Below, piece by piece: positions 14,049 through 46,748 of a DNA stretch of 64,000 bases. The stretch spans positions 1-64,000 of the forward strand of contig CAIVED010000027.1 of the NCBI GenBank assembly GCA_903904885.1, written 5' to 3'. This stretch comes from an uncultured archaeon (lineage in GTDB: Archaea; Nanobdellota; Nanobdellia; Woesearchaeales; CAIVOO01). The notes beneath the pieces were generated by a model that saw only the letters and a program-made list of their open reading frames with translations, was not told where the DNA came from and searched no databases. The position numbers were made by a program, and so were the translations under genes. Each line of letters begins with the position of its first letter. The stretch's first letter is position 1.

Positions 14049-14918
14049 TTATTTGCCAAGTTTTTTTCTTTTCTCTTTTTCTGGTAGTTCAAGATAATTT
14101 TCTTTTGAAACTATTGGCCTGCCTATTGCTTTCTCTGCGTCTTTCCTTGCCCTTCCTGCAACCCCTCCTCCTTTGACAGAAGCGGTTTTACACTCATCAA
14201 AACCCCTGGAGTCCTCTTTCTTTGTTATTTCTTTAGTTACTTTCTCTCCAAGCATTGTAAAGATAAGCTCCAAATCATCCATGTGGTCCCTGAGATTTTG
14301 TTTAGCGATGCCTTTATATGCCATATACTCATCAACTGTCTTGCCGAATGTTGCCTTGCTTATTTCATTTGTTAGGATTGCAAACTCAACATTTTGCTTC
14401 ACTCCCCGATTTTTCCATTCATCTGTCAGTTCCTGCCTTACTGCTATGCCTCTGACCCGTTTTTCAACCCATTCATCAGAATACCCTTTTGCCCTGTAAA
14501 TTTCCTTCATTCTGGCCTGGGCCAATTCGGGGTTTTCTATTTCCTGCACTCTTTCATAGCCAACCTTGGCAAGCCAAAGCTTGAACGGCTCTGCCTTTTT
14601 TGATGGAATAGATTGTATGATTCTGAAAATTGCCGCAGTATTGGCACAGTTCACGCTCTGTTTACCCCCAGCAGTTTCAACTGAAAGGGTATGTACAATT
14701 TGTACCCACCCCTGCTCAAGGGATTCGTCCCTCTGCTTCATCTTCTGTATATACTGTTTAGTGTCCTTAGAATCAGTTAATGCATAGACAACATCCTCTA
14801 TGACAAACCACCACTGATTATCATGCCAAGTCCTTCTTATTTTCTTATCCTGGAAAACCACCAGGGCATTATTTGCATCCATTTTGGGTGAGAAAGCATT
14901 CTGGCTTATAAATTTCAC
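14049..14918 (-). CDS. Bro-N domain protein (DinD/phage antirepressor-like)
   Basis: The 289-residue protein starts with a Bro-N type domain: IRRTWHDNQWWFVIEDVVYALTDSKD, then a long linker and NCANTAAIFRIIQSIPS with the LAKVGYERVQEIENPELA region typical of DinD and Bro-N/KilA-like proteins. The C-terminus has DAEKAIGRPIVSKENYLELP, common in phage-derived antirepressors. Bro-N proteins bind DNA and are frequent on mobile elements. It lies 50 nt behind the DUF2779 nuclease gene on the same strand and may be the last gene of the Csa3 operon, or a separate insert with its own promoter in the AT-rich gap. Confidence 0.8.
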   Translation of the reverse strand: MKFISQNAFSPKMDANNALVVFQDKKIRRTWHDNQWWFVIEDVVYALTDSKDTKQYIQKMKQRDESLEQGWVQIVHTLSVETAGGKQSVNCANTAAIFRIIQSIPSKKAEPFKLWLAKVGYERVQEIENPELAQARMKEIYRAKGYSDEWVEKRVRGIAVRQELTDEWKNRGVKQNVEFAILTNEISKATFGKTVDEYMAYKGIAKQNLRDHMDDLELIFTMLGEKVTKEITKKEDSRGFDECKTASVKGGGVAGRARKDAEKAIGRPIVSKENYLELPEKEKRKKLGK

Positions 14919-14967: not shown

Positions 14968-16419
14968 CTATTTAGCCATTCCCTTCAACTTCTCCACAAT
15001 CCATACCATTCCCTCGGTATCAAGACCACAGTATTTCTCTAAGTCTTTCCTTAGCTTCTCTTTCTCCGTTAAAGGTATCTTAGAGAAAGCTATGTCCAGG
15101 AAGGCCAGACTGGCGCTTCCGCCGTTGTTTATCTCCAAATCTGCATAACTCTTGCCGGTCAAGGCAGGCAGCACATGCTTGATTGAACAGCTGCCTTGCT
15201 GGACAGGATTGTAGTAATCAAAGTTTCTGAATGGAACAAGCAGGTCAACAACCCTTTTGATAACAGAATCTACCCATTTTTTATAAGAAGGGAATAATTT
15301 CCCCAGTTCCTTCATTCTCGCTATCTCAAATGACTGGTTGAAGACAATAATACTCCCTTTGCTGCCAAGAAGCCTCTTTAATTCAGAAACAAATTTCTTC
15401 CTCGGATCTTCCTTCCCCGAAGCTAAGAATGAATAATGTTTCACTTCTTTTCCATCATCAACATGCAAGGAAAACTGAAATGGAATCTGCTGGTAAGGTT
15501 TGCTTTTATCATAAAATGGAATAGCAGAACCGAATGTCTCAAAGTCCAAGTAATAAAGTGGATATTTCAAGGTAGAAAGAAACTTCTTTATTCCTTCCTT
15601 ATTCACATGAATCTGTCCTGTTTTAGCGCATTTAAGCTGTATCCCCTGCTTGTCATTCAGCTTGAAATCCGAAGGAATATCCTTAAGGGAAACAATCCCT
15701 CGTTCATAGAGCTCAAACTCCTTGCCTCTTGCATTATACAAATCAAAAACACTTCCGTCAGGAAGCTGCCAGCATTCTCCCTCAACAGGGCATTCGTAGG
15801 GCTTCTTGCATTGCCTGCCAAGAGCAGAAGAAGGGCACTTTTTTGAGTTTATGATATTAAACATCTCCTTAACCCTTGAAGGCACAGATTTAATCTCCTC
15901 AGCAACTTCTTTTGAGATATCCTCTTTTACAAACAGCTTTTTGACATTAATCTCCCCTTTTCTTACATATTCATTATTGATATGCATAAGAAAGCATTTG
16001 TTAATCTTTAATCCGGCGTGCTCATAAACATACTTCTGGAAAGCAACGTCCGGAATATGTTCTTTTTTTACTTCTGTTGACATTTTCACTTCAATAATGT
16101 CCCAGCCCTTTGGAATCGGATTAAGAATATCTGCCCTTGAATATAATTGGGTTACAGAAAAAGCTGCCTCAAACAGGGGCTTTTTCTTTGAAAGCAGTTC
16201 AGATGACTTTTTTAGATTCTCACCAAAAGGCTCTGTTGGAATATCAATGCCTTTGGGAAACAATTTCTTAGCCCATTCCCCAACCAAATTCCCTTCATCA
16301 AAAATATGCTGCTGGGCTTTGTCTGTCTTAGGGAGCTTATCTGGCTCATGAAATTCCATCCACAAATACTTCGGGCACTGCAAGCCGATCATGTATTTGG
16401 ATTTGGTTAGGAGGTTCAT
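14968..16419 (-). CDS. DUF2779 protein: Cas4-like nuclease fused to DnaQ-like exonuclease
   Basis: The 483 residues split into two parts. The N-terminal half is Cas4/RecB-like (PD-(D/E)XK): Asp97, Glu110-Val-Lys112 and a QKYVYEH motif (128-134), with cysteines 15, 195, 204, 210 and 216 in positions reminiscent of the Cas4 iron-sulfur cluster. The C-terminal half begins YYLDFETF (Asp292, Glu294), continues with FNQSFE and ends YCGLDTEGMVW, the ExoI/II/III pattern of DEDD exonucleases. This fits the DUF2779 family, whose biological role is, as far as I know, not established. It starts 1 nt after the DUF262 gene and must be co-transcribed with it and the Csa3-like regulator. Confidence 0.8.
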   Translation of the reverse strand: MNLLTKSKYMIGLQCPKYLWMEFHEPDKLPKTDKAQQHIFDEGNLVGEWAKKLFPKGIDIPTEPFGENLKKSSELLSKKKPLFEAAFSVTQLYSRADILNPIPKGWDIIEVKMSTEVKKEHIPDVAFQKYVYEHAGLKINKCFLMHINNEYVRKGEINVKKLFVKEDISKEVAEEIKSVPSRVKEMFNIINSKKCPSSALGRQCKKPYECPVEGECWQLPDGSVFDLYNARGKEFELYERGIVSLKDIPSDFKLNDKQGIQLKCAKTGQIHVNKEGIKKFLSTLKYPLYYLDFETFGSAIPFYDKSKPYQQIPFQFSLHVDDGKEVKHYSFLASGKEDPRKKFVSELKRLLGSKGSIIVFNQSFEIARMKELGKLFPSYKKWVDSVIKRVVDLLVPFRNFDYYNPVQQGSCSIKHVLPALTGKSYADLEINNGGSASLAFLDIAFSKIPLTEKEKLRKDLEKYCGLDTEGMVWIVEKLKGMAK

Positions 16420-16420
16420 T

Positions 16421-18073
16421 TTACCCGGATCTTTGCAATTTTTTTAACTCCTTGCTAAATAACTTAAACCGTTTATTCAAAAAATTCTCATAATACTTTG
16501 CTAGTATTTTTGGTTTAATTGCTCCAGATTTTCTTTTTAGTTTAAGTTCAACTTTTCTAAGATCCGATATGGAATTGAAGCAAAGAAGATTGCTTCTGAA
16601 AAAATTTTCTTCTTCTTTTTTCTTAGGTTTATATTCTTCACGTTTTTCTATCAGCCAGTCAGATGGCAAAAAATCTTGTTTTCCGGCATTTTCCCCTCTA
16701 GGCAAGAAAATCAAGTTTAATATGCTATTTACTTTATGCTCAGGTATTGAATTTTTAGACAGAAGGTTATGTGCATAAAAATGATCCCCTTCTCTCTTTG
16801 TTTTTTCGGACTCTGTTTCTATTAGACTGGGTGTGCCATTAAGCCAATAGGGTCTTTTGGATAATAGCATTAGTCTGATACAATTACCAACGCTTGACTT
16901 ACCGGTACCAAAACTTATTTTTACCAAATCCTCCTTTTTGATGTTTTGTATGGGAATATTTAATGATTTTATTTTATTTCTTGCTAAATTTCTCATTGAA
17001 GTTGGGTCCTTTCTAATATTTTGATTGTAACCAGAACCGACATATCGGGATCCCAAAGCAGACCTCCAAAACCATTTTCTTAGTTCTTTATTTTGACTTT
17101 TGGTAGGTGCTTTATTTTTGTTATAATAGAAGAAAATACTCAACACAGTTAGCATAGTTTGAGAAGGTAGCTCATCTGTACTATTTAATTTAAAATTGCT
17201 TTTCAAATAGGCCATAGCATATTTTACTGTCTCTAAAACATTCTTAAAAATCTGGTTATATCTTCTTGACTTTTTTTCTCTTATTTTTTCTGCAATTTCA
17301 CCCAATTTTCGTAAAGAAACATCAACTTCCGCTTCAGGGTCATAATCATTTTTTTCTTCCAGCTGCAAAATTATTGCGAATGCATGTATAAAAATTATGT
17401 CTTTAAGTTTACTAGATATCTTACCCTTATCTTTTTTCTTCCACTCTCTTAAAATTTTTCTTATACTTGATCTTCTACTCCATGAATCTGATAAGAAAAT
17501 TGCTTCAGTTGAAATTCTTGTACCTGCTTGATTTATTCTTTCAAATAGCTTTATTGCATCCTCAAAATTTCTTGTAGAAACGATGATCGCAGGAAATTTA
17601 TATCCCTTAAGCATTTTTTCAAATTGATTATAATCAAAATCGGGATTTCCGCGTTCATTTTGTTTTAATTCTGGTTTTTTATTAAAATAAAACTCCTTAA
17701 AATTAATTGGATTTTTCTGACTTCCTTCGTAATTCTCATCAAATTCTTCTTTGATAGTTCCTTCAAATCTATCTTGGTTACATAAGTAAAAAAGGGATAA
17801 CATCCTCTGTTGACCGTCCAATATGAAATATTTATTTCCGGATTTTAAAGGATTCACACCAAATAAATCTCGAGGGTTTATTTTTTTATTTGTTTTCCAG
17901 ATTGTAAAAACACCTATGGGATAATTCTTGACTAAGCTGTCAAAAAGAGCTTTTATTTGATTATTTTTCCAAACATAGCCTCTTTGAAACTCGGGGATTG
18001 AAACTTTTTTAGACTTAATAAATTTTAATAATCCGTCTAGTGTGAACGTTTTTATTTCTATTTTGTTTCTCAT
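16421..18073 (-). CDS. DUF262 family protein (GmrSD-type nuclease-like)
   Basis: The 550-residue protein has a DUF262 (ParB/Srx-like) N-domain: IPEFQRGYVW (residues 26-35) and ILDGQQR (84-90), the motifs used for NTP binding or hydrolysis in GmrSD-type enzymes. The C-terminal part has KREGDHFYAHNLLSK followed by NLIFLPRGEN, which looks like a degenerate DUF1524/HNH nuclease core. GmrSD proteins are type IV restriction enzymes acting on modified phage DNA. The gene is AT-rich compared with neighbours. Its ATG overlaps the regulator's stop (TAATG) and it is followed after 1 nt by the DUF2779 gene. The nuclease call is a family inference. Confidence 0.8.
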   Translation of the reverse strand: MRNKIEIKTFTLDGLLKFIKSKKVSIPEFQRGYVWKNNQIKALFDSLVKNYPIGVFTIWKTNKKINPRDLFGVNPLKSGNKYFILDGQQRMLSLFYLCNQDRFEGTIKEEFDENYEGSQKNPINFKEFYFNKKPELKQNERGNPDFDYNQFEKMLKGYKFPAIIVSTRNFEDAIKLFERINQAGTRISTEAIFLSDSWSRRSSIRKILREWKKKDKGKISSKLKDIIFIHAFAIILQLEEKNDYDPEAEVDVSLRKLGEIAEKIREKKSRRYNQIFKNVLETVKYAMAYLKSNFKLNSTDELPSQTMLTVLSIFFYYNKNKAPTKSQNKELRKWFWRSALGSRYVGSGYNQNIRKDPTSMRNLARNKIKSLNIPIQNIKKEDLVKISFGTGKSSVGNCIRLMLLSKRPYWLNGTPSLIETESEKTKREGDHFYAHNLLSKNSIPEHKVNSILNLIFLPRGENAGKQDFLPSDWLIEKREEYKPKKKEEENFFRSNLLCFNSISDLRKVELKLKRKSGAIKPKILAKYYENFLNKRFKLFSKELKKLQRSG

Positions 18074-18675
18074 TACAACCTCGCTATCTTCCCTGCATCT
18101 GTTAGTTTGATTCCATCTTCTGTGCTAACAAGATCCATGTCTTTCAGTTCGTCAAGAGCACGGTAAAGCATCGCACTTGATAATTCCACTTTCTTGGCTA
18201 AATCGCTTATGCTGTCGAACTTGCCTGATTCCAGCGCTTCAAGTATCTTTTTCTGGCTCTCGGTTAGTTTGAATGATAACTTTGGAAGATAAACAACAGA
18301 GCTTTTGTCCTCTTCAGGATTGTAAGCAATCTTCCTAACTCGGTCATGGCGAGCGTAAGCAGCAAAAAGAAGTCCAATTGCTTTTGTCTTTCTGCCGGAA
18401 GTAATATTCACAAATATCCAGTCATCTTTCGGTTGCAGGTCAATAATCTCAACGCACTTGCGAGCTACTTCAACAATGTCATAGACCTCTGTCTTGATTG
18501 CCTTGACATCAATAACCTTGCCCAAGGAGCCCTGGATAATCTTCAATGCCTCTGCCTGCTCCTTGTCAGGCTCTTTGTCAATAAGAAGTATTAATCTGTC
18601 AGGCCCAAGCCTTGTTGTAGCCAATATAACTGGCTCTGGACTATATAATGTTGCTATAAGTACCTTTTTAACCAT
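18073..18675 (-). CDS. csa3: Csa3-like CARF-domain winged-helix regulator
   Basis: From MVKKVLIATLYSPEP the protein (200 residues) shows a CARF fold: Rossmann-like first strand, TTRLGPDRLILLID, and the ligand-loop-like NITSGRKTKAIGLL. It ends in a winged helix-turn-helix domain (FKLTESQKKILEALES to SSAMLYRALDELKDMDLV). Csa3 proteins are CARF regulators of archaeal CRISPR loci that bind cyclic oligoadenylates. I prefer the ATG at 18675, preceded by AAGGGGGC and matching the family start; an ATG at 18726 would be leaderless and adds 17 residues. No cas gene or array is in the window, so here it probably controls the DUF262/DUF2779 operon. Confidence 0.75.
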   Translation of the reverse strand: MVKKVLIATLYSPEPVILATTRLGPDRLILLIDKEPDKEQAEALKIIQGSLGKVIDVKAIKTEVYDIVEVARKCVEIIDLQPKDDWIFVNITSGRKTKAIGLLFAAYARHDRVRKIAYNPEEDKSSVVYLPKLSFKLTESQKKILEALESGKFDSISDLAKKVELSSAMLYRALDELKDMDLVSTEDGIKLTDAGKIARL

Positions 18676-18744
18676 ATTTGCCCCCTTAGAATCAGTTGGC
18701 TCTTGTTTGTTTATAAACATTTCCATAGGAAACCCTCAAAACCT

Positions 18745-18812
18745 GCTTCTTTATATATCTTTCCATATATTAGTATAAATATATACCAAATAATAGAAAT
18801 GTTTAAATAGAA
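18745..18812. promoter_or_regulatory. Divergent promoter region of the two island operons
   Basis: Leftward, GATATATAAAG (reverse strand, 18759-18749) is correctly spaced for a start near 18727. Rightward, GTTTAAATAG (18801-18810) is 26-30 nt before the ATG at 18831, so that message is probably leaderless. The 60 nt between the boxes is almost pure A/T and is where a shared regulator such as the Csa3-like protein would have to bind. Confidence 0.5.
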
Positions 18813-18830
18813 GCGGGTTAGACTATTGCC

Positions 18831-19703
18831 ATGAAAAATGAAAAAATCAAAAAATATCTTCATAAAAAAATAAAGGGATTTCAGCCTATTTCTCAGTATA
18901 ATGAGGTGGTTTCAATAAAAACAATGATTGCATCAATAACAGCAATGGTTGAAAAAACAGGAAAGGTTAACTTTGACTTCTCTGATGTGAAATCAATTCT
19001 TGATAATGCAATAGAAATAAGTTTCTTTTCAGGAACTGAGAAAGATATTGCTACGATAAGTTGCCCTGAAGTAGATGGTGTTCTTTTGTCTATCGAAGGT
19101 CCCAAGACCCTGAGCCTGGATAAATGCAGAAATATTGTGAATAAATTTTCAAAAAAAATCAGTGAAAAGGCCAGAATAGTCTGGGGAGCAAAAATAAATA
19201 ATAAATTGAAAAAAATAAAATGTCTTGCCATATTAGCACAGATAAATAATAGGGATATAATTTATGATAAAAAGGATAAGCTAAAGTATATTAAAAAAGA
19301 AATTATTAATATAGACCGACCAATTAAGAAATTCATTTTAAAACTTAATGAAATTGATGGAATTATGACATATTCCTGCTGTGCGGGGCATTCCATGATT
19401 GATAAAGAACAAAAAAATCTTAATATATCTCCTACTTTTGAATCTAGTGATTATTGGATCATAAATCATCAAACAGGGGCGATATACGATAATCCTTTCA
19501 TAAAAATTAGATATGTTCCTAAATCAGAAAGGTTAGTATGTGAAAAAATAATTCCTTTTTTCATAGTTAGAGGCTTCGAGTTTTCATTTCCTCTGCGCAA
19601 TAATCGGGAAATTGTATTTTTTTCGAGATGTATTACCAAAATAAACTGGAGAAAACTGACAAAAGAGCTTTCATTAGAAAAGGAAAAATGGAGATTAAAA
19701 TGA
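18831..19703 (+). CDS. FtsZ C-terminal-domain-like protein without GTPase domain, plus SCxGH domain
   Basis: Residues about 31-140 align by eye with the second half of the FtsZ encoded at 45551: TMIASITAMVEKTG with NFDFSDVKSIL (47-57) matches the FtsZ T7-loop region NLDYADVKAIM, then GVLLSIEGPKTLSLD and RIVWGAKINNKLKKIKCLAI match GAIIQVNGGPDMTLD and NVIWGARVQDDMKGRITVMT. The whole nucleotide-binding half (GGGTGTG) is absent. Residues about 160-275 form another domain with KLNEIDGIMTYSCCAGHSM, a motif I associate loosely with phage and TYW3-like proteins. It is the first of four ATGA-coupled genes. A role in binding or capping FtsZ filaments is an inference. Confidence 0.7.
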   Translation: MKNEKIKKYLHKKIKGFQPISQYNEVVSIKTMIASITAMVEKTGKVNFDFSDVKSILDNAIEISFFSGTEKDIATISCPEVDGVLLSIEGPKTLSLDKCRNIVNKFSKKISEKARIVWGAKINNKLKKIKCLAILAQINNRDIIYDKKDKLKYIKKEIINIDRPIKKFILKLNEIDGIMTYSCCAGHSMIDKEQKNLNISPTFESSDYWIINHQTGAIYDNPFIKIRYVPKSERLVCEKIIPFFIVRGFEFSFPLRNNREIVFFSRCITKINWRKLTKELSLEKEKWRLK

Positions 19704-20146
19704 TGAACGTCATATCAAAAACAGAGCATCTGAACAAGAAGGGCTGGCTTTTAACAAAAGAAGAAGTTGAAAGCAAGGTAAAAGAATTTCTAAAGCTTGA
19801 CCCAAATGTAGAAATAATTAGGATTGACGGATTCCAGGCAGAATATGTCACTGTGTTATACAGCGAAAAACCCACCTATAAAAAAGAAAGAGATTTCATT
19901 CACGAGTTTGAGTTTGATGAAAAAAGAATAAGCATGAGTGACAAAACTTTTCTTAACATATTTGGCATAGAGCCAATACACAAAAAAATAATAGCCATAG
20001 AAGGAAGGACAAAAAAAGATGGTCTTTTTTTGTCGACATACAGACACCCAAACAAACATCTGTTTCCTGAAAAAGATATGTTCTACTTCTTCACAATAGA
20101 AGAGCCGTATCATGATATAATTGAAGAGGTAAAAGATGAATCTTGA
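19700..20146 (+). CDS. Hypothetical protein, second gene of the FtsZ-C operon
   Basis: I take the start at 19700, which overlaps the previous stop as ATGA and is preceded by GGAG; the longer in-frame ORF from 19628 lies inside the upstream gene. The product (148 residues) is soluble with a charged N-terminal helix (TKEEVESKVKEFLKLDP) and a beta-rich remainder, without catalytic motifs I recognise. Its gene overlaps the next by 11 nt. Unknown function; the context ties it to the FtsZ-domain proteins. Confidence 0.65.
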   Translation: MMNVISKTEHLNKKGWLLTKEEVESKVKEFLKLDPNVEIIRIDGFQAEYVTVLYSEKPTYKKERDFIHEFEFDEKRISMSDKTFLNIFGIEPIHKKIIAIEGRTKKDGLFLSTYRHPNKHLFPEKDMFYFFTIEEPYHDIIEEVKDES

Positions 20147-20837
20147 AGCAATTTATCCTCAAAGGCCGTTTGTTCTGATAAATGATTCGGGCTTTTATTT
20201 TGACGAAATCAATAAGGACTTGAAGGATGTATTGGAATATCCTGATTATGATTTCCTGCTGAAAAACATTGAGGAATTGAAAAATAGCAAGAAAGTGATA
20301 ATACTTTATCCAACCCAAAAAAGGGAGATTGAGCTGATGTCAGTTTATCTTCCTATTGCAAAAACCCCTGTTAACATGCTTCATCTTGCAGGAAAGTTCC
20401 TGCAAAATGCAAATAAATATGATGAGAATGAGATGCTCAAATTGGCAGAAAAAGAAAACAGATATGGGTGGCTGAGCATTTTTGTTTTTGGAAGACTGCA
20501 TAAAAAAATTAATCTGAACCCATCATACCTTTTGACAACAAAGCCTTTAATGAAAATGTGGGAGCATTATGACTTGAAAGGTATCGCTTTGCCTAATACA
20601 AAAGAATATATTAATTCAAATGAAGAATTCAGCCCTATCCTATTTCTTGAATTAGCAGCTGCCGAGCTTTTAGGAAAAGAAACAAGGGAAAGCATAGCTG
20701 TCAAAAAGCTATTAAGCCATAATATTGGCGAAGAGATAAAGTCAGATGAATTGGATTTGACTGAAAGTCTATTCAACAGCCTAATGAGTGCAGGACTGAT
20801 TTATCAAAAGGAAAAAGGAAAAATAGTAAGGATATGA
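20136..20837 (+). CDS. Hypothetical 233-residue protein, third gene of the FtsZ-C operon
   Basis: Starts MNLEAIYPQRPFVLINDSG, overlapping the gene before by 11 nt and the gene after by 4 nt (ATGA). The C-terminal 60 residues (SFEE-like acidic helix, then DLTESLFNSLMSAGLIYQKEKGKIVRI) resemble a winged-helix end, so DNA or protein binding is possible. The middle has helical repeats (ALPNTKEYINSNEEFSPILFLELAAAELLG). No signal peptide or membrane segment. No named family recognised. Confidence 0.65.
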   Translation: MNLEAIYPQRPFVLINDSGFYFDEINKDLKDVLEYPDYDFLLKNIEELKNSKKVIILYPTQKREIELMSVYLPIAKTPVNMLHLAGKFLQNANKYDENEMLKLAEKENRYGWLSIFVFGRLHKKINLNPSYLLTTKPLMKMWEHYDLKGIALPNTKEYINSNEEFSPILFLELAAAELLGKETRESIAVKKLLSHNIGEEIKSDELDLTESLFNSLMSAGLIYQKEKGKIVRI

Positions 20838-21157
20838 GACAGAAAATGAAAACAATACCTGAAAAATACATGAAAAAACTGACAGACTGGAGAAAATGCT
20901 GTACTGACCTCACAGAAAAAGAAATAAATGAAGTTGTAAGCTTAGGCAAAGAAATAACAATGCAGCCAAAGAAGAAAATGCTTGCCAAAGGGGCAATATT
21001 CTTTCTTCAAGGCAATGAACATCTTTCACTGGATAAAATAAATGAGATAGGCGGTTCAAAAACAAAATACTGCTCTGATGAATCAAAAATCATATGGGCT
21101 GCTGAAATAAAAAGCAGAACCGAAAAGCCAAAAATAACCTCTTTTTACATTTATTGA
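20834..21157 (+). CDS. Second FtsZ C-terminal-domain-like protein (minimal)
   Basis: The 107-residue product contains GAIFFLQGNEHLSLDKINEI (53-72) followed by KIIWAAEIKSRTEKPKITSFYI (85-106). Laid beside FtsZ from this window (GAIIQVNGGPDMTLDDINRI and NVIWGARVQDDMKGRITVMTII), spacing and hydrophobic pattern match strand for strand, so this looks like the core of the FtsZ C-terminal domain alone. There is no GTP-binding domain and no T7 loop. The N-terminal 50 residues are helical and basic. Start 20834 overlaps the previous stop; MKTIPEK a few codons later is an alternative start. Last gene of the operon. Confidence 0.65.
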   Translation: MRQKMKTIPEKYMKKLTDWRKCCTDLTEKEINEVVSLGKEITMQPKKKMLAKGAIFFLQGNEHLSLDKINEIGGSKTKYCSDESKIIWAAEIKSRTEKPKITSFYIY

Positions 21158-21221: not shown

Positions 21222-21491
21222 ATGGAAACAGTCACATTGAAGATGGAGAAAGAGATGGTCAAAGAGATTGACAGCAAACTAAAAGAAAACAGGTACAGCA
21301 CAAGAACCGAATTCATAAGAGATGCTGTGAGGCATAAGCTAAGCCAGATGGAGAAAGAACTGATTTTCAAAAGGCTTGAACAGGCCAAGGGAAGTTTAAA
21401 AGGGAAAGCCAGAACAGATATAAGCGAAGAGGAAGCAAGGGAGCAGGCTGCAAGAGAAATAGCAAAGCAATTTGGAATTGAGTTAGATTAA
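21222..21491 (+). CDS. Ribbon-helix-helix antitoxin-like protein
   Basis: The 89 residues start METVTLKMEKEMVKEID, the RHH beta strand, then the helices KLKENRYSTRTEFIRDAVRHKLSQ, a classic CopG/RHH domain. The C-terminal acidic and helical tail (ISEEEAREQAAREIAKQFGIELD) is the usual toxin-neutralising extension. The partner is most likely the PIN protein at 21483-21893, but that gene is convergent and overlaps by 9 nt rather than following in the same operon. Confidence 0.8.
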   Translation: METVTLKMEKEMVKEIDSKLKENRYSTRTEFIRDAVRHKLSQMEKELIFKRLEQAKGSLKGKARTDISEEEAREQAAREIAKQFGIELD

Positions 21492-21893
21492 TTCTTCTGG
21501 TTTTTTGACAACAATTCCCATAACCCCATAAAAGTGAGCATCACGGCTTATCATCAACGCATCATTATCTTTCGCTAAAACAGCATGAAATGCGTCTCCG
21601 GAGGGTATTTTCAACTGGTTTTTCATTTTTAATGCATCTTCTGTTTGTTTTTCACTTGTACTAATATTCACTCTTAATTCCGGAGGCACTATTTCAAACA
21701 TACTGACTATTTGCTTATCAGTATAAAATTTTCTTAGCTCAACCAGAAGCATATCGCTTATCAGGAACAAACCCCCTTCATCCACAACCTTCTTTATAAA
21801 CCTAAACGCCCAATCTCCAAGCGGCCTGAGATTGTCTGAACGATTTTCAAAATAGTCACGCCATATGCAGGCGTCAATGTAGTATTTTTGCAT
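21483..21893 (-). CDS. PIN-domain ribonuclease (VapC-like toxin)
   Basis: The 136-residue protein shows PIN landmarks: YYIDACIWRDYF with Asp7, a Glu in LLVELRKFY, the GDAFHAVLA motif, and the last acidic SRDAHF followed by VVKKPEEL. These residues bind Mg2+ in VapC-type RNases that cut tRNA or rRNA. The gene is transcribed towards the RHH antitoxin gene and the two 3' ends overlap by 9 nt, so they are not in one operon and mutual antisense effects are possible. Confidence 0.85.
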   Translation of the reverse strand: MQKYYIDACIWRDYFENRSDNLRPLGDWAFRFIKKVVDEGGLFLISDMLLVELRKFYTDKQIVSMFEIVPPELRVNISTSEKQTEDALKMKNQLKIPSGDAFHAVLAKDNDALMISRDAHFYGVMGIVVKKPEELI

Positions 21894-45550: not shown

Positions 45551-46627
45551 TTACCTTATGATTTCTATCCCAAGCTCCCTGCTTACCTGTACTTGCTTTG
45601 TGGACGGCTTGCTGTAGTCCTGCTTTCCAAGTATCCAAGGCGACTGGACTCCTGTTATGATTGTCATAACGGTTATCCTGCCCTTCATATCATCCTGGAC
45701 TCTTGCGCCCCAGATGACATTTGCGTCCTCATCCATTGTCTCGGTTACCAATTCGCCAATCCTGTTAATGTCGTCAAGCGTCATGTCAGGACCGCCGTTA
45801 ACCTGGATGATTGCACCTGTTGCTCCTGTGTATGTTATGTCAAGCAATGGGTTTGCCAATGCTCCTCTTACCGCCTCTTCTACCCGGTTAGTTGTGTCCG
45901 AGCTTCCTACTCCAATTGCCGCAACTCCTCCGTTGCTCATGATTGCCTTGACATCTGCGTAGTCAAGGTTAACCAATGATGGTATTGCAATTGTTTCGAC
46001 AATTCCTTTGATCATTGTTGAAATCAGTTCGTTTGCAACTGCGAATGCCTGGGTAACCGGAAGGTTACCTGCAATCTGGACAAGCCTGTTGTTGTCAATC
46101 ACAATTACTGTGTCTGACACCTGCCTAAGCTGCTGCAATCCGAATTCTGCCTTGTCAATTCTTGCCCTTTCAATCTTGAAAGGCATTGTGACTGTTCCTA
46201 TGACGATTGCGCCAACATCCTTTGAAAGCTGGGCAATTACAGGAGCTGCTCCTGTTCCTGTTCCGCCGCCCATACCGGCGCATACGAATACCATGTCAGC
46301 GTCCTTAAGTGTTTCCTTAAGCTGCTGAAGTGATTCCTTTGCTGCCTCGGATCCTTTTTCAGGGAATCCTCCGCATCCAAGACCCTTAGTTACATTTCTT
46401 CCCAAAAGAAACTTTCGGTCTGACTCTGTTATCTGCAAGTGCTGCTGGTCTGTGTTAACTGCGATGACCTCAGCTCCCTTGACACCTTTCTTGTAGAGCC
46501 AGTTAACCATGTTATTACCTGCTCCGCCAACGCCAATAACCTTAATATTAGCCTGGCCGATGTCAACTCCTTCGAATTGTGTTGTTTGTTCCTGCGCCCT
46601 TAAAGCGTTTTGCACCAAAAAGTCCAT
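45551..46627 (-). CDS. ftsZ: Cell division protein FtsZ
   Basis: 358 residues from ATG 46625-46627, preceded by the strong ribosome-binding site GGGGGAGG; an upstream in-frame ATG would place the start before the promoter. IGVGGAGNNMVNWL, the tubulin signature GGGTGTGAAP (about 121-130), the T7 loop NLDYADV (220-226) and the C-terminal domain GAIIQVNGGPDMTLDD (271-286) and VIWGARVQDD are intact, with a conserved end SRELGIEIIR. It forms the division ring. Its C-terminal domain is the template against which two truncated homologues at 18831 and 20834 were recognised. Flanked by structured elements on both sides. Confidence 0.97.
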   Translation of the reverse strand: MDFLVQNALRAQEQTTQFEGVDIGQANIKVIGVGGAGNNMVNWLYKKGVKGAEVIAVNTDQQHLQITESDRKFLLGRNVTKGLGCGGFPEKGSEAAKESLQQLKETLKDADMVFVCAGMGGGTGTGAAPVIAQLSKDVGAIVIGTVTMPFKIERARIDKAEFGLQQLRQVSDTVIVIDNNRLVQIAGNLPVTQAFAVANELISTMIKGIVETIAIPSLVNLDYADVKAIMSNGGVAAIGVGSSDTTNRVEEAVRGALANPLLDITYTGATGAIIQVNGGPDMTLDDINRIGELVTETMDEDANVIWGARVQDDMKGRITVMTIITGVQSPWILGKQDYSKPSTKQVQVSRELGIEIIR

Positions 46628-46705
46628 TTTAGTCCTCCCCCAGTTTTGCTCTCTTTTGGGAAATTGATTTTTTTGTTTTATCGGGATAGCGTGAACTAAC
46701 GAAAG

Positions 46706-46722
46706 CTTTATATAGTAGTTCA
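46706..46722 (-). promoter_or_regulatory. ftsZ promoter (near-symmetrical TATA box)
   Basis: CTATATAAAG on the reverse strand (46719-46710) predicts an ftsZ transcript start near 46687 and a leader of about 60 nt ending in the GGGGGAGG ribosome-binding site. Read on the plus strand the same bases are CTTTATATAG, also a valid box, which would start a plus-strand RNA near 46738, just before the three hairpins. Confidence 0.55.
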
Positions 46723-46748
46723 TACTATACTCTATTCCAGAAACAGTT

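Follow-up and report, generated by a model that had tools for sequence, protein, structure and literature searches.

In an operon of an uncultured archaeon, under a CARF regulator, we find an FtsZ cut down to the domain that bears its catalytic T7 face. We propose that this protein acts either as a false FtsZ subunit, which would arrest division and fire the GTP of FtsZ, or as a bait for viral division inhibitors, an account that we place a little short of even odds. The best explanation, at a rough probability of 0.4, is an inducible stand-in that would dock on FtsZ and arrest division. That judgement is drawn from sequence comparison and predicted structure.

Table 1. Features of the window, by position in the stretch.
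Feature	Position	Strand	Basis or remark
Bro-N domain protein, 289 aa, last gene of the CARF-side operon	14049..14918	-	Clustering
DUF2779 protein, weak Cas4/RecB-like region	14968..16419	-	Pfam DUF2779 E=2.4e-41
GmrSD_N (DUF262) protein	16421..18073	-	Pfam E=1.4e-28
CARF-winged HTH regulator, Csa3 family	18073..18726	-	PADLOC PDLC01849 E=3.4e-70; TIGR01884
38-nt inverted repeat enclosing the operator	arms 18740-18777 and 18782-18819		
TATA box	18750-18757	-	
Palindromic operator between two divergent archaeal promoters	18761..18799	.	Profile from other CARF loci
TATA box	18802-18809	+	
Gene 1, FtsZ_C (residues about 29-138) plus C-terminal ~145 aa	18831..19703	+	Pfam, NCBIfam, AlphaFold, Foldseek
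T7 synergy-loop motif NFDFSD of gene 1 (N47, D49, D52)	18969..18986	+	Alignments with FtsZ
Taw3/TYW3-like stretch of gene 1 with T-x-SCxG motif	19296..19403	+	Sub-threshold profile match
Gene 2, 148 aa	19700 (or 19703)..20146	+	FtsZ_C partner conserved at both loci
Gene 3, 233 aa	20136..20837	+	Relatives sought, none found
Gene 4, 107 aa, second FtsZ_C remnant (S8-H10-S9-S10)	20834..21157	+	Profile and pairwise matches
Complete host FtsZ	45551..46723	-	TIGR00065 393 bits; start perhaps 46627

The operon lies within the window, the whole 64-kb stretch of DNA that was analysed, and consists of four plus-strand genes (18831-21157), adjacent ones being coupled via ATGA or 11-base overlaps. The initial annotation had described two of these overlapping genes as carrying FtsZ C-domains, and the coordinates, the overlaps and the Pfam and NCBIfam matches agree with it. 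The Pfam FtsZ_C profile (PF12327) matches gene 1 with E=3.2e-7 and 31 bits, against a gathering score of 27 bits, and the NCBIfam ftsZ model is matched at positions 171-339 only (E=3.9e-12). Assignment by profile thus stands for gene 1 and fails for gene 4, whose weak match lies under the cut-off (E=0.0015, 19.2 versus 27 bits). Gene 4 nevertheless matches gene 1, the FtsZ_C protein of a second locus and FtsZ independently in pairwise searches, with alignment scores reached by 0 of 3000 shuffles. It effectively starts at strand S8 and has no T7 loop. The absence of the GTPase half from both genes, also claimed earlier, is borne out, as neither matches PF00091; the ORFs tested between 15 and 22 kb gave no FtsZ/tubulin GTPase domain either. 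Against the FtsZ equivalog TIGR00065, which takes at least 295 bits, genes 1 and 4 score 46.2 and 16.7 bits.

A multiple alignment set gene 1 beside the window FtsZ and 24 C-domains of FtsZ drawn from other genomes in the order. The elements of gene 1 run in the order end of H7, T7 loop, H8, S7, a deletion that removes most of helix H9, S8, H10, S9 and S10. The T7 loop, which had been placed in this larger gene, is indeed kept, and the triad N-x-D-F-x-D reads N47-F-D49-F-S-D52. In an FtsZ filament, the GTPase site of each subunit is made complete by the T7 aspartates of its neighbour (PMC8936486). Structure prediction also upheld the assignment: AlphaFold gives residues 29-138 the FtsZ C-terminal-domain fold (pLDDT mostly 80-93), with the same element order as the alignment, and the best 50 PDB matches of the model in Foldseek are all FtsZ (E down to 2.5e-9). 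Since the input alignment contained FtsZ rows, this fold is a confirmation and not independent proof. The last ~145 residues form a non-FtsZ region that is weakly Taw3-like. Pfam TYW3 gives a sub-threshold match there (E=0.0012, 18.7 bits across 36 residues), and the stretch reaches a profile score of 29.6, where 40 shuffles gave 21.5 at most. Taw3/TYW3 membership takes a full-length match above 27 bits and is not assigned; a genuine Taw3 is on contig C34.

Family profile searches gave no match for gene 2 or gene 3, and PADLOC models gave none below E=0.02 for genes 1-4. The structure model of gene 2 has a pLDDT of 53 and no fold match, and a single borderline match, to FabZ, was obtained for this gene (E=0.0028). 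A JAB/MPN protease (Prok-JAB) identity for gene 2 was rejected, as its hhalign score of 13.3 falls under the best shuffled controls. Downstream of the operon, a ribbon-helix-helix antitoxin-like gene (21222-21491, plus strand) and a PIN-domain toxin-like gene (21483-21893, minus strand) converge and share 9 bases, an arrangement that differs from the usual VapBC operon. The flanking genes of the island, as found in genome G002, sit on separate contigs in an empty-site check.

The host genome encodes two FtsZ, the window copy and one on contig C12, as placed in a tree of 64 FtsZ proteins. Profile scores lean towards pairing gene 1 with the C12 FtsZ and gene 4 with the window FtsZ. Because AU tests reject no alternative, and the diagnostic columns are split, we do not claim one decoy per host FtsZ.

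A search of the assembly with gene 1 found a second locus on a 3.6-kb contig, C23. There, a CARF regulator 86% identical to that of the window is divergent from genes for a membrane protein (69 aa, the first of the divergent genes), a double-AAA ATPase (482 aa) whose closest solved structures are Cdc48/p97, a stand-alone FtsZ_C protein and a gene 2 homologue. A last ORF is truncated and unlike gene 3. The four-gene order, sought elsewhere, was not found, whereas FtsZ_C with gene 2 beside a CARF gene recurs once, within the same assembly. The C23 FtsZ_C protein has 123 residues and 63% identity with gene 1, matches PF12327 (E=3.1e-12, 47 bits) and solved FtsZ structures (M. jannaschii, E=4e-13), and keeps the T7 triad. 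The two gene 2 proteins are 74% identical. In place of the GTPase domain, gene 1 and C23 FtsZ_C have a common N-terminal helix (p=0.0005), of which gene 4 carries a weaker trace (p=0.008). Between the window and C23 copies, dN/dS is 0.32 for FtsZ_C, 0.17 for gene 2 and 0.11 for the CARF gene, with dS of 0.75-0.85. These low ratios indicate purifying selection, and so the three are functional proteins and not debris. C23 could derive from a co-binned relative, since the bin has 2.2% estimated contamination and the contig is unlinked to the rest. TGA recoding in C23 was ruled out: the frame is ordinary, and an apparent extension ran beyond the gene end.

The operon opposite the FtsZ_C genes contains the CARF/Csa3, GmrSD_N (DUF262) and DUF2779 genes that the initial annotation had listed, followed by a Bro-N gene that we add. 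The regulator scores 85.2 bits against TIGR01884 (cut-off 60.2), as a Csa3 regulator with CARF plus winged HTH. The Bro-N name comes from the Pfam match of a cluster mate, the protein clustering with Bro-N proteins from other CARF loci; relatives of the DUF2779 protein are present at 6 other CARF loci. Between the divergent TATA boxes lies an imperfect palindrome of the approximate form TTTCTATTATTTAGTA-n-TACTAAATAATAGAAA, conserved across CARF intergenic regions. An operator profile was made from 37 other CARF loci, of which the 25 best sites were used, with the window and C23 left out. At the window site it scores 32.1 on the plus strand and 30.7 on the minus strand, and such similar values befit a palindrome; no other site in the 64 kb scores above 8.2, and the score at C23 is 27.9. 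The plus-strand TATA box is about 26 bases from the gene 1 ATG, a spacing typical of leaderless archaeal transcripts. From the constant association of regulator and site, we infer that the CARF protein itself binds the operator.

CARF regulators of the window's family are present in 42 of the 353 genomes of the order, and 40 loci around CARF regulators of the order were compared. Their divergent genes vary: nine loci have relatives of the C23-type AAA ATPase, several of them with a 177-aa partner, and others have unrelated genes. The CARF-side genes vary as well, among DUF262/GmrSD, DUF2779, Bro-N, ORF6N, PD-(D/E)XK, UvrD and RhuM. Neither FtsZ_C nor gene 2 was found in the 40 loci. Since the operator is common to CARF loci with other cargo, the FtsZ_C operon is read most simply as CARF-controlled exchangeable cargo.

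Several observations on these loci can be set down on their own account. A two-gene cargo recurs at L069, L072, L076, L084 and L086: a ~177-aa protein (MKGY...) without known family and, after it, a single-AAA ATPase of ~440 aa. Double-AAA ATPases related to that of C23 are divergent from CARF at L079 (6094-8583), L068 (8321-10556) and L071 (9297-11496), with differing partners, either a coiled-coil protein of ~165 aa or 235-aa and 117-aa unknowns. At L094 (1367-2491), the CARF reading frame of 375 aa is longer than its relatives and is possibly a fusion. The conserved palindrome holds the same position in ~25 CARF loci (L065-L094) and could serve to find exchangeable cargo operons.

Cas1 was not found in the window's genome. 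No Cas10 palm domain was found in that genome, and none above the cut-off across 30 CARF-bearing genomes, all counts being of incomplete bins. Type III CRISPR ancillary membership is not assigned to the operon, as its genome, an incomplete bin, has no detected Cas10 cyclase. The usual source of a CARF ligand is thus missing, and the ligand need not come from a host type III system. The initial annotation had suggested that the operon could stop division during infection, and these results weaken the words "during infection".

To ask which surface of FtsZ is kept, the polymerisation face was taken as T7, S8, H10 and S9; H10, S8 and S9 have been named for MinC binding (PMC11938149). On this face, gene 1 and C23 FtsZ_C share 48 of 86 positions (56%) with the FtsZ consensus; elsewhere they share 16 of 110 (15%). 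These archaea have two clades of complete FtsZ paralogues, and the same comparison between the clades gives 60% and 47%. The gap between face and remainder is far wider in the FtsZ_C proteins than in these true paralogues, so the polymerisation face has been kept while the rest drifted. The T7/H10/S8-S9 face of FtsZ is bound by SulA, MciZ, MinC and phage T7 Gp0.4 (PMC11938149, PMC13423816).

We suggest the following sequence of events. The CARF-HTH regulator, via one palindromic operator between divergent promoters, would control its own operon and a cargo operon. The cargo would be an FtsZ-directed module in which gene 1, or its C23 counterpart, is FtsZ cut to the activation (C-terminal) domain. 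Once the regulator switched, the stand-in would be made and would turn its T7/H10/S8-S9 face towards host FtsZ, on the side of the nucleotide face. A dead-end FtsZ:stand-in pair would form, and the removal of monomers or the blocking of filament ends would lead to division arrest. Since the T7 catalytic triad is kept, the stand-in perhaps triggers GTP hydrolysis. In the C23 version, the adjoining Cdc48-like AAA ATPase might assist in taking FtsZ apart. The domain content, the predicted fold, the second copy, the selection, the operator and the kept face are results of the analysis; we infer the direction of regulation, the binding of FtsZ, the arrest and the link to infection. As to polarity, the T7 face of the stand-in would dock at the nucleotide face of FtsZ, on a free monomer or at the minus end, and this docking side would be opposite from that of MciZ, SulA, MinC and Gp0.4. 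The initial annotation's idea of filament capping is compatible with a stand-in so placed.

The stand-in is supported by a C-domain without GTPase, the T7 triad in both copies, the face identity, purifying selection, the second locus and the shared operator. Counted against it are that a decoy would keep the same face, that gene 4 has no T7 loop, that the evidence comes from a single genome assembly, that known FtsZ inhibitors bind the T7 face and do not imitate it, and that no Cas10 was found as a source for a CARF ligand.

The decoy reading, absent from the initial annotation, fits roughly as well. It holds that FtsZ_C imitates the FtsZ surface attacked by viral division inhibitors, either soaking up the inhibitor or, once bound, signalling via partner genes as in effector-triggered immunity. 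The selectively kept face is the very one that SulA, MciZ, MinC and T7 Gp0.4 bind, and there is a precedent in the Enterobacter defence protein CapRel-Ebc, which senses the Gp0.4-FtsZ complex (PMC13423816). The setting is one of defence, with CARF loci among GmrSD, PD-(D/E)XK, UvrD, Bro-N/ORF6N and RhuM genes. However, bait would have no need of strictly retained catalytic T7 aspartates, constant expression would be more expected of a sensor than regulated expression, and no archaeal viral FtsZ inhibitor was identified here. We regard the decoy as possible if doubtful, and favour the stand-in because the catalytic triad is kept and the control is switch-like.

The domain may instead no longer meet FtsZ at all, its fold now serving the partner genes as a dimerisation domain, a ligand domain or a scaffold. 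The fusion of gene 1 to an unrelated C-terminal region, the loss of H9 and the lack of a T7 loop in gene 4 point this way, but what has survived belongs to the polymerisation face and goes beyond a mere core, and we think this reading unlikely. Less probable again is an adaptor, in which FtsZ_C with gene 2 would deliver FtsZ filaments to the Cdc48-like AAA ATPase for dismantling. The double-AAA gene of C23 is immediately upstream of FtsZ_C and gene 2; the window operon, however, has no AAA gene, and near relatives of the C23 AAA adjoin CARF without FtsZ_C, or adjoin Bro-N genes. That genes 1 and 4 are fragments of a degenerating FtsZ gene, as the missing N-terminal half and the weak match of gene 4 might suggest, is already disfavoured and highly improbable, given two copies under purifying selection (FtsZ_C dN/dS 0.32), their common N-terminal helix, an operator and promoter, and a coupled operon.

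Neither FtsZ_C nor gene 2 turned up in any other genome searched. The order's remaining 352 genomes gave no gene 2, and in a 371-genome sample of the phylum its matches are weak and at chance level only (E about 0.001-0.01). For FtsZ_C in this sample, among the matches listed, only ordinary FtsZ scores besides the two copies of this assembly. Pattern scans of 84,980 genomes and viral contigs, which reach near relatives only, and tblastn of phages with gene 1 and of plasmids with gene 2 gave no relative except an apparently ordinary FtsZ. A stand-alone FtsZ_C candidate in genome G234 was rejected as a full FtsZ with a frameshift; the frameshift splits the gene near the T7 loop (L133, 6579-7668), as an assembly error or a pseudogene. 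Two further FtsZ genes were seen in passing. One in G359 (L136, 1858-4092) has an open frame of 745 aa, roughly double the normal length, possibly with an intein or large insertion. The other is a 311-aa homologue (E=1e-66 to the window FtsZ) on a contig of a viral collection (L064, 7443-8375), which is a virus or a misassigned cellular contig.

We know of no described natural FtsZ homologue consisting of the C-domain alone, and the accessible portions of the literature searched describe no GTPase-less FtsZ. The Csa3/CARF kind of regulator is already known; we know of no earlier account of cargo like FtsZ_C. With the FtsZ activation domain PF12327, the FtsZ_C proteins have in common the fold, the T7 triad and the S8-H10-S9 sequence; they differ from FtsZ in lacking the GTPase domain, in a reduced H9, in the fusion of gene 1 to another region and in belonging to a CARF-controlled operon. 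SulA, MciZ, MinC and T7 Gp0.4 resemble the proposed role in their target, FtsZ, and their outcome, a block of assembly. Their sequences are unrelated, however, and they bind the T7 face, whereas FtsZ_C is the T7 face. With Csa3/CARF-HTH operons, the window shares the regulator family and a palindromic operator in AT-rich promoters, but it has no adjoining cas genes, the genome gave no Cas1, the genomes checked here gave no Cas10, and the cargo is FtsZ_C. CapRel-Ebc likewise links the FtsZ synergy-loop face with antiviral defence; it monitors the host's own FtsZ, whereas in our case a fragment of FtsZ is encoded separately. FtsZl1 and FtsZl2 are, like FtsZ_C, divergent proteins of the FtsZ superfamily, but they keep the GTPase domain, and FtsZl1 has no recognisable FtsZ C-domain, the reverse of FtsZ_C (PMC2875224).

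Should FtsZ_C block FtsZ, evolution would have made an inhibitor out of the very protein that it targets and placed it under an immunity-type regulator as its switch, and division control would be tied to signalling in small-genome archaea. If the decoy reading is true, FtsZ-centred effector-triggered immunity would be extended to archaea. Under either the false-subunit or the bait reading, this would be the first dominant negative or decoy known in nature to derive from FtsZ. The CARF operator, for its part, offers a handle for locating other exchangeable cargo operons.
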